A stretch of DNA of 64,000 nucleotides, from the NCBI RefSeq assembly GCF_038396675.1, contig NC_088933.1, positions 41,562,501 to 41,626,500 of the forward strand. Direction: 5' to 3'. Below, in pieces: positions 27,553 to 58,001 of the stretch. The position numbers were made by a program, and so were the translations under genes. Under the pieces are notes generated by a model, which saw nothing but the letters and a program-made list of their open reading frames with translations, did no database searches and was not told the DNA's origin. This DNA is from Hydra vulgaris. Its lineage: Eukaryota; Cnidaria; Hydrozoa; Anthoathecata; Hydridae. Within the stretch, counting starts at the first letter, position 1; each line of letters starts with the position of its first letter.

Positions 27553-30500
27553 CACGGCTATCTAAAACACAGGCCTATTAATCGTGCAAACCGTAAAAAT
27601 AACTGGAGGCCGATTAGTAAAAATTTAATTTAGGCTTTACTTTGATTTATAAAATTATTTTAACAAATTACAATTGTTATCTAATTTGTCTACTAAAGGC
27701 ATACTTATTTTATATTTATTGAAGAAAAAATATTACCAAATTTCAATGAAACATAATTTATTCAAAAGAGTTTTATATAAGTCAAACAACAAAAACAACA
27801 CAAGTTTTAATTTAATCACTCAGTTTTGAAATTTTTTGAGCTGGCTCCTTGTAAGAGCGTGGAGTGTTTAGCTTTGAATAATTATTTAAAAAAATATTTG
27901 ACAAAATTTTACAAATTTTTTCAAACACTTATTATTTTACAATTTTTTTCATACACTTATTATTCATACACTTATTATTATTTCATACACTTACTATTAT
28001 ACATTTCATACACTTATTATTATACAATTTTTTTCATACACTTATTATTTCATACACTTATTATATTATTATACAAATTTTACAACTTTTTTCATACACT
28101 TATTATTCTTAAAATAACCAAAAAAAAAATTGTTGATTGATTGAAAGTAGTATGATAAGGAATGCAAACAAACTGGCAAAGTCATATCCAGTGCAATAAA
28201 AAGTATATAACAAAAGAAAGTAAATTGACTTAAAATGTCAGTTGGCTTTGTTAAACCACCTCTATTTAAGTCTAAGAGATAAGCACCATACTCATTACAA
28301 TATGAATATGTATCAGTGTCAAGATCTTCATAACCAATCTTAAATTGAAGGTAACCAGCAATGTATACTAAAGCCATTTTAACAGAGTCAGTTAAACTAG
28401 ACTCTACTATTTTCAAAGAATCAAATATTTCACTTTCCTTTTGTGTTAGTTGCCTCTGACAGTTCATGCAAGTATGACCAACATAAAGCTCACGAAAGTC
28501 TGAATCATATTGTAAAAGTAGTTTTGAGTGCTCAATTTTAGTTTTTTCTAAAACTTGTTGAACCGAAATAAAATAAGCACCACCAGCACCTTGACGTAAC
28601 TTACTAAATGCCTTTTCAATAGGGTCAGATGTAAAGTCACCAAGTTTTACAAATTCATGTGATGTACTTAACAAATATTTTGCTAACTCAACTAGTCCTT
28701 TTAAGGTATGGACTATCGCTTTAGATGTTTCAACAGTCAATGTTTTAATTCTATTTTTTCTATTATGGCAATCCATATCTTCACAGATTTGTGATAATGA
28801 AAGTATCTGTTGCAGACGAAGATCATCAGTCGAATTTATGACAGAGCGCAATGGGTCTCTTAACCTTTTATCATCACCCAGTTTGTGAACATTAATAATT
28901 TTCCATGCGTCTATAAACATTTTTAGAAATACAACAGTTCCTTTAACATTGGTTTGGTCTATTTTAGGATGTGTTGATAAGGCAGAAAAAGTTTCATCAC
29001 AAAAAACTCTCAAACACAAAGAAACATTTTGTCGCTCAACAGGTTTTGGAAAGATAGAAGCTGTATTTAAACGTGAAAGAGTCACAAGTGTCTTACTTTC
29101 TAAGTTGTAAAGGTTCTTAAGATCACTCCACCTTGCAACTAAATTATCATCATCATCCTTAAATTGAATTTCTTGTGTTTTTTCAGTAATCCAATTATTT
29201 CTTATGTTTTTCCATATATGAACATAATCGTAAAGTAAAAAAATGTTATTTTTAGTCAGCCATGGTTTCTCTTCTAAAGTTTCAAAGAGAGAGAGAAAAA
29301 CTTTACATTGACTTTATTATTGTCACATATAATCGCAACACAACTTCCATTTGCATTTGAAATTGATCCAAGTATAGAATCAACTACTTCATACTGAAAA
29401 TCTGAATCAAGACAACATACTGGAATCATGCATACTATAAAAGTGGGTCCACCAAAAAGACATTTAATCATAACAGCTAACATTGTTTTTGCTAATTTGT
29501 CTGGTTGATTAACAGATTTCCCAAAAAGTTCTCCACCGTGATAAGTTAATGAAGCTTTAACATATACTTCATCAACTATTAAAATGCACTGTCGTTGTCG
29601 GTTAGTAAGTTTGCAAAAAACATGCAAAATAAATTCATCATTGTTTAATTTTGAAGCTTTTGATGTCAATTTTAGTAGAGTAGAAACACTGGGAAGCTGA
29701 TAATCATTGCGAATTCGCTTATAAAGTGCTCTTGAAACAGAAAAATATTCAAAAGCTCGAACAATAGTGTTTGAAGAATACAGTAAGATCTCCAATACTT
29801 AAGACTTTCATAGAAGATAAACTTTCTACAATAACTTGTTTTTTTATCGATAACTCAATATTAGTCAAATATCTTATAGCTTCAGCCAAATTCGACCATT
29901 TGTCTAAAATAGTTACATGATTTTTTGACAAACTTGTTACATAGCATAAGCATCCACAATGATACGTCTCATATTTTAATTTAGAAGAAAGATTTAGTAT
30001 GAACCTATAAAAAATCAAATAAGAAAATCAGTAACAATTAATTAAATTTTTTTTTATAAATTTATAATAATTTAAAGAAAGCTTATCTTACTTTGGTAAA
30101 CCACAGTAAAATTCAGTTGATTGAAAACAAATTTTTTCATCACATTTGTAGACAACTATACACTTTAATAAATCTTTTGGGATTTTTTTTTGGTAATGAA
30201 TAATCGCATCATTGAAATTCAAAGAGTCCATCGCTTTAAAAGTTTCAAGTTGATCAGCTTGTACACTTCTTGCACCAGAAGTTGATGAAGTTGTAATTCT
30301 TGACTTTGGAGGTGCAGTTGGTACAAGGCTGGACTTAACACAATTAAAAATAGAAGGTGGAGAAGAGGGTCTTTCCTTGCCATAAACATTTATTTTTTTG
30401 AAATTTATAGGCCAGTGTTCAAAACATACAACAGTGTATTTGCTATCAGGAATGTTGCTTCTTGGAATAGCAGATAGCCACTTTCTACGATCTTCTGGAT

Positions 30501-30724
30501 CTTTTGGTAATCTGTAAACAGCACACTTTTTTTATCTGTTAAATAATTAGTAGAGCAATTCGCAACACAACACTTTAAAGGCATAATAAGTCTCAATAAA
30601 TATTTTTTCTTCTTCCAATTTTAAGCAACTATATTTAACCATCGGCAAATATTAGTGAGTTAATCGGCCTCCAGTTATTTTTACGGTTTGCACGATTAAT
30701 AGGCCTGTGTTTTAGATAGCCGTG
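27553..30724 (-). mobile_element. P-element-type DNA transposon, 3172 bp
   Basis: It is bounded by 64-bp inverted repeats that are identical base for base (27553-27616 and 30661-30724, beginning CACGGCTATC) and by perfect 8-bp target duplications GCTCATTG. It encodes a THAP-domain transposase on the minus strand. Perfect TIRs and duplications imply recent insertion, yet the transposase frame already has a few indels. Confidence 0.95.
28069..30584 (-). pseudogene. THAP-domain P-element transposase, near-complete
   Basis: ATG 30584 starts MPLKCCVANCSTNY, the first Cys pair of a THAP zinc finger. After a one-base shift near 30530 the finger completes with LPKDPEDRRKWLSAIPRS, VVCFEHW and the PSIF box. 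Exon 1 ends at 30092 (GTAAGA) and an 87-bp intron (30005-30091) is removed in phase to give CGLPK-FILNL. The catalytic part has LIVDEVYVKASLTYHGGELF, ICDNNKVNVKFF and, after a second shift near 29285, YDYVHIWKNIRNNW, then SDPIEKAFSKLRQGAGG. These match the P/THAP9 transposase layout. Shifts near 30530, 29790 and 29285 disable it. It would bind its ends and excise or integrate the element. Confidence 0.85.
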
Positions 30725-31361: not shown

Positions 31362-31366
31362 CAATG
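31362..31366. repeat. Target-site duplication CAATG (left)
   Basis: It matches 34727-34731. Five-base duplications are characteristic of Transib and RAG-type transposition. Confidence 0.75.
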
Positions 31367-31404
31367 CACAGTGGGCCAGAATGCACTTTTACTGGACAAA
31401 ATTC
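31367..31404 (+). repeat. Left terminus: heptamer, 22-nt spacer, nonamer-like motif
   Basis: CACAGTG (31367-31373) is followed by 22 nt and then ACAAAATTC (31396-31404). CACAGTG is identical to the consensus heptamer of V(D)J recombination signals; the nonamer consensus is ACAAAAACC, so the match there is 7 of 9. Confidence 0.6.
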
Positions 31405-31846
31405 ATAACTAATTTAATATTAGAGCTATATTCACTAAAATTAGTATGAGTACTAATATGATGTCTGCGCTTTTTATGAAGGTAATATTTTTTTATTTCG
31501 TTGCTATGGATACCTTTATTTTGCTTAGCAACAACCTACTTTTGTTATCTGCAGATATTTTATAAGTGCTATATTCACTAAATTTGGCATGAGTACCAAT
31601 ATGAGATCACACTTCTTACAAAAGTGATAATTTTTTAAATTTAGTTGTTATGGATACTTATATTGCTTAGTTACCGGATACTTTCCTTAGTTACAAAGTG
31701 GTAAATTGATATTTGAATATCTTATCGGATTTTTGACCCACCTATATTGAATAAAAATTGAGTATTTAGGTAAATAATGTTTTAGGAATAATAAAAGCAA
31801 AAAATAGTGCAAGAAAACGTTATCAATTTTAAATTACATCAAAAAA

Positions 31847-33826
31847 TTATAAAACAATAATATCGTTTGAAGATTGTTTAAGTAATTGTAAAACATCTGA
31901 AGGAAATGCTTTATGATTTGTTTGGTGTGATGTTGATTTACGCAATGATGAAATAACAGGATCACTGGAAACTAGGAGTCTATTGATAAGATCAGTATTT
32001 GTTGCTTTTCTGGATGTTTTTCGGCTGAAATTTTCGCGATAAGATTTAAAGTTTTTATTTCTAGCCTCTTGAGCTTCCTCTGACATAAGTCCGATGGGTA
32101 ATGTAAGGCTTTTAATTATGTCATGTCCATGTATCAATACTTTGTGAACTGATTGAACCATGTAATACCATGGATAAAGGGACACATATAGTCTAAAAGT
32201 GTCAAAACAATAATCCTTGAACTTTAAGCAGTCTATTTCATATCCTGAAGAGAGCGTTACCAAGATAATGTAAAATCTGAATATAAGGTTTTGGTCAATA
32301 CCCAGAATTTCAGCTGTTTGTTCATATGCTGCAAAAGCACGCCTTGAGGTATTGCCATCATTACTTGTTCCAGAACCACCACTTTTAGGGAAATCAACAA
32401 CAAGTCCCATTTTGTTCATAAAATCAGTCTGAATCTTTTGTTTAGCTACAGATGCCTTTTCTTTGTGTTCTTTAGATCTTGCTTGCCACTTTCTTGTTTC
32501 TTTTTTATATGCAATGTGCAATAACATCTCAAAAAATCGAATCCCTGCATGAAGACTGGAAAGACCATATTTGAACTCTCTGTTAGTATAATCTATATTA
32601 AGGATATCAAGACTATTCATATTTTTTGGAGAGACACCACACACTGAACAGCATTGGTATGAGTTATTTTTTTCAGATAATATTGTTTGAACCTTCCCAT
32701 TAATCATTGTAAGTTCAATAATACAATTCACTTCAATAGAAGATCCGCAAAACTCTAATAAAATCATACCCAAGCTTTCTATCTCACTTTTAATGTACTG
32801 ATCTTCTTCAATCACAGATTCCTTGGATTCCATTTTGTATGCAAATCTTATGGGTCTACAATAGGCTGTGGAGGACGACTTTTGATTTCTCCAAATAGGC
32901 ACCTTTTCGTTGCTGTTGTTAAATCCAGTCAAATCCAATGGGACAAGACAAGTAATAAATAATGATTCTTCGCGCTTTAAATCTCTGTTAATGTCGGGTT
33001 CTGATAAAACTTGTTTATAAATGCTTTGGCCAGTAGCACCATCAAAACCAGCCTTACACGTTAGTGTCATTGTTTTTATTGCTTTGTCGTTCAATATCAA
33101 GTGCCTTAGCACAGGTTCCTGAACTGCACAGATTCTTTGCAATGTATGAGTCATTAAATCTTTTAAAGGAACTGAAGCTGAATAGTCCTCCACTGTTATG
33201 TTTGCAGGATAACATTTCAATTTTGCATCTCTGACATCATTGTAAGCGGGGTAGATGTTATATTCTTTCTCCAAGGCTCCGCCTCAAATCAATTGATAGG
33301 AAGCTTTTGTCAGACTTGCATCAATTATTAAAGCCAGTGCTTTGTCTGCTGAATATTTAGTTGCTTTATCTGTATTTGATATATTTAAAACATTCTTGGC
33401 AGCAATAACAACAGATTCATCTCTAAATTTTTTATTAGCAGAAAAAAATAATTCATTGGATGAATGAGATTCAATTTAACAAGATACACGCCGTTTTTTA
33501 GTTTTATTAGAACTATTATCAAATGCAACTGGTTTTCGACCACGTCTACTTGCAGTTGGTTCATTGTCTTTTTTTCTGACAATTAAATATTCATTAAGCC
33601 AGTTCACAAACTTCTTTTCAAAATTTTTCACAGTATAGTTTGCAGATTTCCACTTTTTTTTATACAAGTAAACAAATCGTTGAACAGCATGTCTAAAATC
33701 AACGTCTTAAAAATCAGCAAATTTTGGCTGAATAAATTTTAATATATCTTCAGTAATATTTTGTTTTGAAATACTAAGATTGTTTTTTTGGAGAAAATTA
33801 TGAATGTCTAAGTTTAACAAAACCAT
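31847..33826 (-). pseudogene. Transib/RAG1-like transposase (660 codons, three in-frame stops)
   Basis: ATG 33826 to the stop at 31847 is one continuous frame, interrupted only by stops at codons 40 (TAA), 117 (TAA) and 181 (TGA). A basic segment GRKPVAF, then KTKKRR, lies near codon 100. The core has FDGATGQSIYKQ (Asp about codon 262, matching the first RAG1/Transib catalytic Asp), TMINGKV (Asn about codon 376 where I expect the second Asp), a CCSVC zinc-binding pair, SSLHAGIRFFE, KWQARSKEHKE, GGSGTSNDGNTSRRAF and, near codon 575-600, VHKVLIHGHDII then LPIGLMSEEAQEARNKNF with the candidate catalytic Glu. Order and spacing follow the RAG1 core. This copy is inactive. Confidence 0.8.
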
Positions 33827-34697
33827 ATCTAAATAATTATTGTAACAAGTATTTTGTATTTAAAAGTAAAATGTTATAATATATATGCCGCCTGGACTAC
33901 TAATACTTGTTAGTAATTAAGTTACTACAAGTTTTAGTAATTAAAATTAAAAGTAATTAAATTACTGTCAGTGTTAGTAATTAAATTACTAACAACTACC
34001 GAAAATATGTTGTTGCTATGTTATGCAAAGTAAGGTATCCATAGTAACCAAAAAAAGTTAACCTCATAAGAATTCTGAATCTCATTTTAATACATACCCC
34101 CAATATTGTGTATTAAGCGCAAGTAAAATACTGTTAAAACAACGTTAATGTAAAAATGAGTTGTTGCTATGCAAAATTTAGTACCATAGCAACCAAGTTA
34201 AAACATACATAAAATCTGAACGGGGATTTAAGGGGACGAGCAATCAATTAAAACTCGATTGAAGCATCATATAGCTCAAATAAATATAAGACAACACATG
34301 GCAAATTGTGGTAATTATTAGTTATTGTGCGGCAAAAAATAAGTTTCTTAAGAAATTTTTTTTTTTAATCTGTGAAATTCAAAGTATAACTGAGATAACA
34401 TGCTATGACAAATTTATTTCACACATTGGTTTTTCTTATCTCTAAATACTCTAGAACAACATGTACTAATTTTTTGTTTCAAAAACGTAGATGTAATTGA
34501 AATATAACACAACATTGATGTCACCGTTAATTACTTATATATAATTTTTTTTTTTTTTTATTTTATCTCGTTATTCAAATGCTTAGAGTCCTGGTAACTA
34601 AGGGATTTAATATAAATAAATTATCAATAGATTTCTCCTAATATATGTAGATACTAAAATTAAATAGGTTTTCAAGATTAGACAACTAAAATTTTTC

Positions 34698-34726
34698 CCA
34701 TTTTGTCCACCTACTGGCCCACTGTG
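34698..34726 (-). repeat. Right terminus: heptamer, 13-nt spacer, nonamer-like motif
   Basis: On the minus strand CACAGTG (34726-34720) is followed by 13 nt and then ACAAAATGG (34706-34698). The spacing differs from the left end (22 nt), giving a 23/12-like asymmetry. Confidence 0.6.
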
Positions 34727-34731
34727 CAATG

Positions 34732-42279: not shown

Positions 42280-44192
<1,913 letters not shown>

Positions 44193-45537: not shown

Positions 45538-46441
45538 ATGCCGCAATACTACAAAAGTAAACTAAACTTAAAACTATTGTATGGAACAAGCTCTGAAGAA
45601 GATATAAAAAAAAGATATAGAAAGTCACATTAAAGGCATGAGTATTCGGAAAACTGCTGATAAGAATAAAGTCAAAAAATTAACATTGCATGATCACATT
45701 AGAAAACCAACCTTAAAGAAGATTGGAGGCCAGACAGTTATAAGTAAAGCAGATGAGATTCTCATTGCTCAAATGCTAGAAGCTGTTGCTGATTGGCTTT
45801 TTTCTATTGGAAGATTAGAAGTTAGAATGATGGCTTTTGATTTCCTCAAAAATTGTAATAGGTCAAACAGTTTCAATTTGCAGATACCTGGAAATGACTG
45901 GTTAAATTCTTTTAAGAAACGAAACAATATTTCTGGCAGAAAGGTTTCTAATATTAAACAATCGAGGTCAAAGTTAGGAGTAAAAATTATAAATAATTTT
46001 TTGGATGAGTTTGAAAAAACTTATGAATCTCTTGCTGATGTTCAACCTTCAAACATATTTAATTTTGATGAAAAAAACCTTTTAGATAATCCTGAAAAAA
46101 AGTTTGTTTTAGTACGAAGAGGAAGACGACGTGTGGAAAACGTTCAAGAACATAGTAAAACTTCAATATCTATTACTTGGCATGGCTCTGCTTCAGGAGT
46201 ACTACAACCACCTATGGTAGTTTATAGAGCATCAAGCTTTTATAAAGGTTGGGTATTAGGAGGGCCACAGGGAACAGTATACAGTTGCACAAAATCAGGT
46301 TGGTTTGATATGGAGACATTTGCCAAGAAGTTTGAAACCTGCTTCTTGCCGAATGTTTAACATTGGAATGAAACCAGGCTTCCTTTAGGAGATAAATTTG
46401 CCTCTCATTTTAATCCAGACATTATTAAACTTGCTAAATAG
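45538..46441 (+). pseudogene. pogo/Tigger-like transposase, truncated
   Basis: ATG 45538 starts MPQYYKSKLNLKLLYG with EEDIKK, the start of a psq-type helix-turn-helix. A slip in the A-run near 45605 moves the frame, which continues DIESHIKGMSIRKTADKNKV, the second helix-turn-helix with WLNSFKKRNNIS, and the DDE domain: SNIFNFDEKNL (first catalytic Asp), SKTSISITWHGSASG, TKSGWFDMETF, a stop after CFLPNV (46360), then LPLGDKFASHFNPDIIKLAK with the second catalytic Asp. It ends at TAG 46439-46441, before the third acidic residue, so it is truncated as well as frameshifted. The protein would bind and mobilise its own pogo-type element. Confidence 0.85.
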
Positions 46442-57291: not shown

Positions 57292-57470
57292 ATGGTGACA
57301 ATTGAAGAAAAATCAAACTTTGTATCAGAAAAAACGTCAAAAAAAGTAACTGCTTTCTTTGACATTTTTGAAGAGAAAGCTGAAGAGTATTTTGCACCCT
57401 TAAATAAAAGAGCAAAATTATTATCATTGAATTGCTTTACTGGAAGTCTTTTAGAAGCTCAGAAAAGCTA
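57292..57470 (+). CDS. Short coding-like frame, unknown
   Basis: The frame reads VTIEEKSNFVSEKTSKKVTA, FFDIFEEKAEEYFAPLNKRA and LNCFTGSLLEAQKS to TAG. It is hydrophilic, helical in character and without low complexity, unlike neighbouring spurious frames. There is no ATG or clear acceptor at its start, and I recognise no family. It could be an exon or TE fragment belonging with the frame at 57636-58001, which has a similar charged composition. Confidence 0.25.
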
Positions 57471-57635
57471 GAAACTTTTAAAGAAACTAAAATATATTGC
57501 ATTGGTAAAACTGTAATTGTAGGAATTCATTACTAAAATACATCTATTGTTATCATTACAGATTTTAAATACAGCTTCTATTGGAGCAATTTTTTTACCA
57601 TAATAAACCATAATAAAAAAGGAATAAGATTTATT

Positions 57636-58001
<366 letters not shown>

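Follow-up and report, generated by a model that had tools for sequence, protein, structure and literature searches.

A Hydra vulgaris Transib family with unequal end spacings of 13 and 22 nucleotides, and its asymmetric and symmetric relatives in the same genome

V(D)J recombination works only with a short signal paired to a long one, and the origin of this requirement is an open question. The question is raised by a 64,000-nucleotide stretch of the Hydra vulgaris genome (C14:41562501-41626500; hereafter the window), in which a transposon at 31367..34726 starts at both ends with the V(D)J heptamer CACAGTG and carries an ACAAAA word at unequal distances from it. Here we ask what this element is, whether the unequal spacing extends to its copies and diverged relatives, and how it may be explained. 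Our study identifies the element as a Transib, and the best overall explanation, drawn from sequence comparisons, is probably that its ends form a working two-part signal deployed as an asymmetric pair, short at the transposase 5' end and long at the 3' end, in an autonomous cut-and-paste family that has multiplied recently and of which the window copy has decayed.

The spacing of the ends in the window and in the genome

The element is a complete Transib transposon of 3360 bp, flanked on both sides by the 5-bp target duplication CAATG. The initial annotation, made from the letters of the window, had described exact CACAGTG tips in what looked like a cnidarian element, with an ACAAAA motif 22 nt from the heptamer on the left and 13 nt on the right; all of this is borne out (heptamers at 31367 and 34726, Hydra as host), and the words common to both ends, CACAGTGGGCCAG and TGGACAAAAT, are longer than it had stated. 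The tips of the two ends are identical over 13 bases and TGGACAAAAT lies at heptamer offset 19 on the left and 10 on the right, so that in each end the 13-bp tip and this 10-bp element are joined by a linker, of 13 bp on the left and 4 bp on the right. Exact matches to CACAGTGGGCCA in the window number two and are the two element ends; a second copy of the element was not found within the 64 kb.

For copies elsewhere we searched the genome (911,502,276 bases in 15 contigs), scoring the best 40 of 1931 candidates, the window copy included, so that the copy number is a lower bound. At least 40 copies are present at about 99% identity, 39 of them full length and one starting at base 6, and their pairwise divergence averages 1.02% (range 0.68-1.31 over 780 pairs). 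In the alignment of copies that the initial annotation had proposed as a check, the left spacing is 22 nt in 39 of the 40 and 21 in the other, and the right spacing is 13 nt in 39, the remaining copy having a point change in the motif. The perfect 5-bp duplications, found in 32 copies, have a G+C content of 61%. The whole 659-aa frame runs through the common stop in 16 of the 40 copies (L023 was left unscored), and a frame of at least 650 aa, counted from stop to stop, is open in 20. The transposase of the window copy has three in-frame stops (codons 40, 117 and 181), its open part being 475 aa, and its second catalytic Asp is replaced by Asn; on these grounds the window copy is very likely dead. 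Because the 40 copies keep their spacings, the asymmetry was already present in the mobile ancestor and is no later accident of the window copy. Because they represent one recent burst, their agreement alone does not demonstrate function; conservation among copies is thus a weak test, and diverged families were therefore compared.

Genome-wide, we counted matches to the pattern CACAGTGGGN{4,24}GNCAAAA, with the same pattern reversed as a control; these are counts of matches and not of ends, since an end with two CAAAA words can score twice, and the many copies of the window family influence them. For spacers of 7-27 there were 2891 matches (1441+1450) against 9 in the control, made up of 1149 against 0 for spacers of 12-13, 113 against 3 for 14-20, 1611 against 2 for 21-24 and, by subtraction, 18 matches for 7-11 or 25-27. 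Of the 2891 matches, 2760 (95%) fall into two narrow spacer classes, 12-13 and 21-24, which differ by roughly one helical turn; part of the 113 intermediates, as judged by eye and uncounted, come from ends that have a further CAAAA beyond a word spaced at 12 bp. Among the matches listed (99, one overlapping duplicate excluded), 50 of the 53 distinct sequences fall into the two classes.

Pairing was studied among the listed ends on C1:0-48 Mb with neighbours less than 6 kb apart; three matches, with spacers of 10, 15 and 19, were left aside, and the set was extended by 37 short-class and 41 long-class listed matches. These 174 ends represent 86 distinct sequences (28 short and 58 long) and include 50 inverted pairs: 46 short/long, 4 long/long and none short/short. 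The other neighbours comprise three same-strand cases and no divergent one. A tandem of Transib-like ends, identical to each other and both with a spacer of 12, occurs at C1:35055734 and 35055803 (+), at a distance of 69 bp.

Transposase class, diverged families and the direction of change

The element has a single long frame, on the minus strand. Its 475-aa open part matches the HzTransib transposase (PDB 6pqn) over most of the frame with E=3e-99 and 43% identity; RAG1 is absent from the solved-structure matches at E up to 1, the sole further match being a chance one, and a Pfam scan of the frame returned only a sub-threshold Kei1 (E=0.055). All three motifs of the catalytic acidic triad are present in copy L002, the residues being those that we take to be catalytic with the help of the alignment to HzTransib. 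Four features of the Transib superfamily are found: the transposase, terminal inverted repeats (TIRs) with a CAC heptamer, the catalytic triad and a GC-biased 5-bp duplication. The element is a Transib, not a RAG1/RAG2-type transposon, so that of the earlier label "RAG1/Transib-like" the Transib part stands, whereas a RAG1/RAG2-type element is contradicted by the one long frame and the lack of any RAG2-like gene in the element.

The CTT1 motif C-x2-C-x3-GH-x4-C, as defined in the text of PMC7204232, occurs in none of ten Hydra frames, at least L069, L045 and L057 being incomplete C-terminally. Subgroup II Transibs are described as having CTT2 instead of CTT1, as having lost the alpha11-alpha12 region that binds RAG2, and as carrying a region resembling the nonamer-binding domain (NBD) with GRP (PMC9435367). 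In lacking CTT1 our asymmetric Transib shows a feature of Subgroup II, and it is an addition to an already described kind.

Relatives were sought with the RAG1 model PF12940 (24 matches) and with the HzTransib sequence (the best 95 of 7418 candidates scored). Transibs seem to be very numerous in this genome, with 7418 first-look HzTransib candidates and all 96 reported matches significant. Autonomous Transibs are stated to be typically present in one or few copies per genome (PMC4411706), a pattern to which the Hydra genome is an exception, and the text of PMC12220107 places CMC-Transib among the putatively active elements of the Hydra AEP haplotype.

Three related families are asymmetric, their core pieces being mostly 48-72% identical to the window family. 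Family B (48-51% identical by BLASTP) has spacers of 22 at the 3' end and 12 at the 5' end, the 3' end being seen in 9 of 20 loci and the 5' end in two of the four stretches retrieved; one copy (L042/L065) has the duplication CTAGG matching at both ends, and in a second two-ended copy (L057/L067) the flanks differ, with no duplication match. L069, with tblastn pieces 55% and 72% identical, has spacers of 24 (3') and 13 (5') and a perfect duplication GGCTG; the same word, ACAAAACCT, follows the spacer at both ends (at 104 and 3102), and the two spacers differ by 11 bp, as those of the 12/23 pair do. L070 (pieces 48-55% identical, one N-terminal piece 26%) has spacers of 22 (3') and 12 (5') and a perfect duplication TTGTG. 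The transposase is mapped in four families, the window family included, and in all of them the short spacer is at the 5' end: the two-part signal consists of the heptamer and [ACG]CAAAA, with a gap of 12-13 at the 5' end and of 22-24 at the 3' end. Shorter or partial elements are asymmetric as well (L071 12/22, L072 22/13, L074 24/13).

Symmetric families are also present: L061/L062, which form one family, and L063 are both 22/22, the left end of L063 being taken as 22 by its conserved CCAAAAGTC and an earlier TCAAAA at 9 being disregarded; L076 is 23/23, one of its ends having a second word that is degenerate (ACAATT), and the short element L073 is 23/23. L061-L064 are 38-42% identical to the window family, and duplications are 4/5 rather than 5/5 in L061, L073, L074 and L076. 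Relatives with one spacing at both ends, which the initial annotation had regarded as telling against its proposal, do exist as these distant 22/22 and 23/23 families, and are not seen among the three closest families found. Searches of other genome-contig and viral-contig collections with the 475-aa query, which reaches close relatives only, gave 10 and 13 pattern-matching stretches, none of them confirmed.

In a phylogeny built from 441 columns of the transposase core (15 tips, WAG+F+G4), a branch separates the window family, L069, B and L070, all asymmetric, from the rest, with a support of 99.5 in the Shimodaira-Hasegawa-like approximate likelihood ratio test (SH-aLRT) and 100 in the ultrafast bootstrap (UFBoot); the placement of L070 inside this side is weakly supported (49.1/68). 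On the opposite side of the split stand HzTransib, the symmetric L061, L062, L063 and L076, and L064, L075, L077 and L078, the ends of which were not located. For the families whose ends were located, a single change in the layout of the ends is therefore enough. Asymmetric TIRs have been argued to be ancestral for Subgroup I Transibs (PMC9435367). The direction of the change is not settled by our tree; HzTransib as the outgroup favours symmetric ends first.

Explanations for the asymmetry

Asymmetric Transibs of flies and mosquitoes were reportedly described by Kapitonov and Jurka in 2005. As listed in PMC8355894, those with 12/23 asymmetry are Transib5 of Drosophila and Transib2, N1, N2 and N3 of Anopheles; like the window element they have a heptamer and a nonamer-like word with spacers of 12 or 23 within 1 bp, and they differ from it in host, the likeness being one of description. 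The same text gives Helicoverpa zea as the host of HzTransib and reports one Transib group with symmetric 20-22 bp spacers. The text of PMC8289069 attributes symmetric TIRs to most Transib families, and reports those of HzTransib to be symmetric and to resemble the nonamer little or not at all; the HzTransib transposase is homologous to ours, whereas the ends of the window element are 22/13. According to Tao et al. 2022 (PMC9435367), all Subgroup I Transibs are asymmetric and Subgroup II holds both symmetric and asymmetric TIRs. The earlier statement that known Transib ends resemble the 23-type signal therefore holds for most families (PMC8289069, PMC8355894), and not for the fly, mosquito and Subgroup I and II asymmetric cases already in print. 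A legend in PMC9435367 lists Hydra Transibs, such as HvuTransib-7_HMp, which can be compared with the window family by name only. No published account of the Hydra spacer distribution was found in the text passages of the literature that were consulted.

In the mechanism that we propose, the catalytic core of the transposase would bind the heptamer and its N-terminal DNA-binding part would contact the CAAAA word, possibly through a stretch that combines basic residues with a GRP-type motif. With spacings that differ by 9-11 bp, about one helical turn, the second site would face the same side of the double helix at either end, and a productive synapse would join a short end to a long one, as ProtoRAG and V(D)J 12/23 pairing do. 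The loose GRP-type pattern is matched in 8 of 10 Hydra frames (GRKP in the window family, GRP in L061, L063, L069 and B, GWP in L064) and has no match in L062 and L075. A profile of N-termini matched only HzTransib, the PDB chain of which starts after the stretch with the GRP-type motif; nonamer-domain homology is asserted for Transibs in PMC9435367. In ProtoRAG an asymmetric pair outperforms symmetric pairs (PMC8289069), and native piggyBac does not complete transposition in cells without its asymmetric pair (PMC7351741). These preferences make a function for asymmetry plausible, and show that it is not special to the RAG lineage.

It is important to note that several points speak against a working asymmetric signal. 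Invertebrate RAG-like elements have been proposed to be relatively insensitive to TIR asymmetry, with a main dependence on the outer 15-17 bp (PMC7204232), and symmetric long/long Transibs have spread in the Hydra genome too. The ends of L064/L075 and L077/L078, 4 of the 15 tree tips, were not located by a CAC/GTG search, and the profile, built from six N-termini, retrieved no RAG1 nonamer-binding domain among solved structures at E up to 10. The genome-wide pattern detects only ends with exact CACAGTGGG and GNCAAAA. Finally, the 50 inverted pairs represent 8 end types, 35 pairs being of one type (the window family and its close kin); with so few types, the lack of short/short pairs is weak as a rule, and we do not claim a short-with-long pairing rule as shown.

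Other explanations have to be weighed against a working signal. The initial annotation had cautioned that ACAAAA could recur by chance in AT-rich DNA. The window is indeed AT-rich (G+C 24-37% in 2-kb steps), and a common word of at least 10 within nt 14-50 of both ends arose in 37 of 20000 base shuffles and in 82 of 19245 random interior pairs, or 0.2-0.4% for one end pair, so that the chance for a single element is small but not negligible; the genome-wide counts (2891 against 9, and 1149 against 0 for spacers of 12-13) refute this caveat and leave chance with practically no probability. Hardly more credible is a RAG-like (RAG1L-RAG2L) transposon that has lost RAG2L: the heptamer and the 5-bp duplications are held in common, whereas HzTransib is the best solved relative, with no RAG1 at E up to 1, and the element has one long frame, CTT1 being missing from all ten Hydra frames, incomplete ones included. 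A 9-bp deletion in one end might instead have hitch-hiked with a lucky active copy, leaving a functionless spacing difference. That the 40 copies, about 1% diverged, stem from one burst would suit such an accident, as their agreement proves little by itself; we nevertheless consider it improbable, given that B, L069 and L070 repeat the short-5'/long-3' layout despite diverged spacers and that intermediate spacers of 14-20 make up only 113 of the 2891 matches.

The most serious competitor, which we rate as quite possible and somewhat below even, is that the asymmetry is ordinary DNA-transposon end polarity, as in piggyBac, with no shared descent with the 12/23 arrangement; the second word would be a subterminal transposase site, and its offset between the ends would order assembly. 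The ProtoRAG spacers of 27/31 (PMC8289069) fit such polarity, as RAG-like asymmetry is then not always one turn. It is opposed by the combination of an RSS-like heptamer (RSS, recombination signal sequence) with an ACAAAA-type word in a superfamily thought to be ancestral to RAG1, and by the near-12/23 Transibs already published (PMC8355894).

Beyond the working asymmetric signal itself lies a bolder proposal: the one-turn asymmetry would be a short-plus-long joining rule of Hydra Transibs, inherited alike in RAG-like elements, and the 12/23 rule would be a transposon feature predating the recruitment of RAG2. We regard this as rather doubtful. It draws on AanRAGL of Aureococcus anophagefferens, whose TIR is described in PMC9435367 as two elements, of 13 bp and 10 bp, separated by a 4/13-bp spacer, lengths equal to those of the window element; AanRAGL differs from it in its sequences, in the presence of RAG2L and in its algal host. 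The resemblance to vertebrate 12RSS and 23RSS claimed by the initial annotation is likewise partial: the heptamer, the ACAAAA core and the pairing of short and long spacers about one turn apart are shared, whereas the spacings are 13/22 and not 12/23 (each 1 bp off), the nonamer matches are only 7/9 and 6/9, and RAG2 is lacking here.

Features of the window and the Hydra series

The coordinates of the element are collected in Table 1. Within it, GTTGCWATG repeats lie near both ends, at window positions 31500, 34012 and 34163 (+) and 34185 (-), four in the 3.4-kb element against four in the other 60.6 kb of the 64. Two direct repeats of 110 bp (79%) lie close to the left end of the element.

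Table 1. Features of the Transib element, in window positions.
Feature	Position	Strand	Remarks
Target-site duplication, left copy (CAATG)	31362..31366	.	perfect 5-bp duplication in 32/40 copies
Left-end heptamer CACAGTG (transposase 3' side)	31367..31373	+	intact in 37/40 copies
Left-end spacer, 22 nt	31374..31395	+	39/40 copies
Common 10-mer TGGACAAAAT, left end	31393-31402	+	
Left nonamer-like word ACAAAATTC	31396..31404	+	7/9 to ACAAAAACC; overlaps the common 10-mer
Transposase frame, 659 codons + stop	31847..33826	-	
Right nonamer-like word ACAAAATGG	34698..34706	-	6/9; overlaps the common 10-mer TGGACAAAAT
Right-end spacer, 13 nt	34707..34719	-	39/40 copies
Right-end heptamer CACAGTG (transposase 5' side)	34720..34726	-	intact in 40/40 copies
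Target-site duplication, right copy (CAATG)	34727..34731	.	

Elsewhere in the window, broken frames at 28069-30531 (-) presumably belong to a THAP-domain P-element-type transposase look-alike, and transposase-like fragment frames lie at 43113-43676 (-) and 45608-46360 (+), which we take to be Tc1/mariner-like and CENPB/pogo-like, respectively. A long GAT-type repeat at 57468-58001 gives poly-Asp and poly-Ile frames on opposite strands.

An origin of the 12/23 rule from such an element is not shown by the Hydra data alone. Their value is that a single genome holds both states, 22/22 or 23/23 families and a group with spacers of 12-13/22-24. As open transposase frames exist in the asymmetric window family and in the symmetric L061 and L063, matched natural proteins and ends are available for measuring the effect of spacer asymmetry without RAG2. 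Such a natural series of symmetric and asymmetric families can serve studies of the origin of the 12/23 rule.
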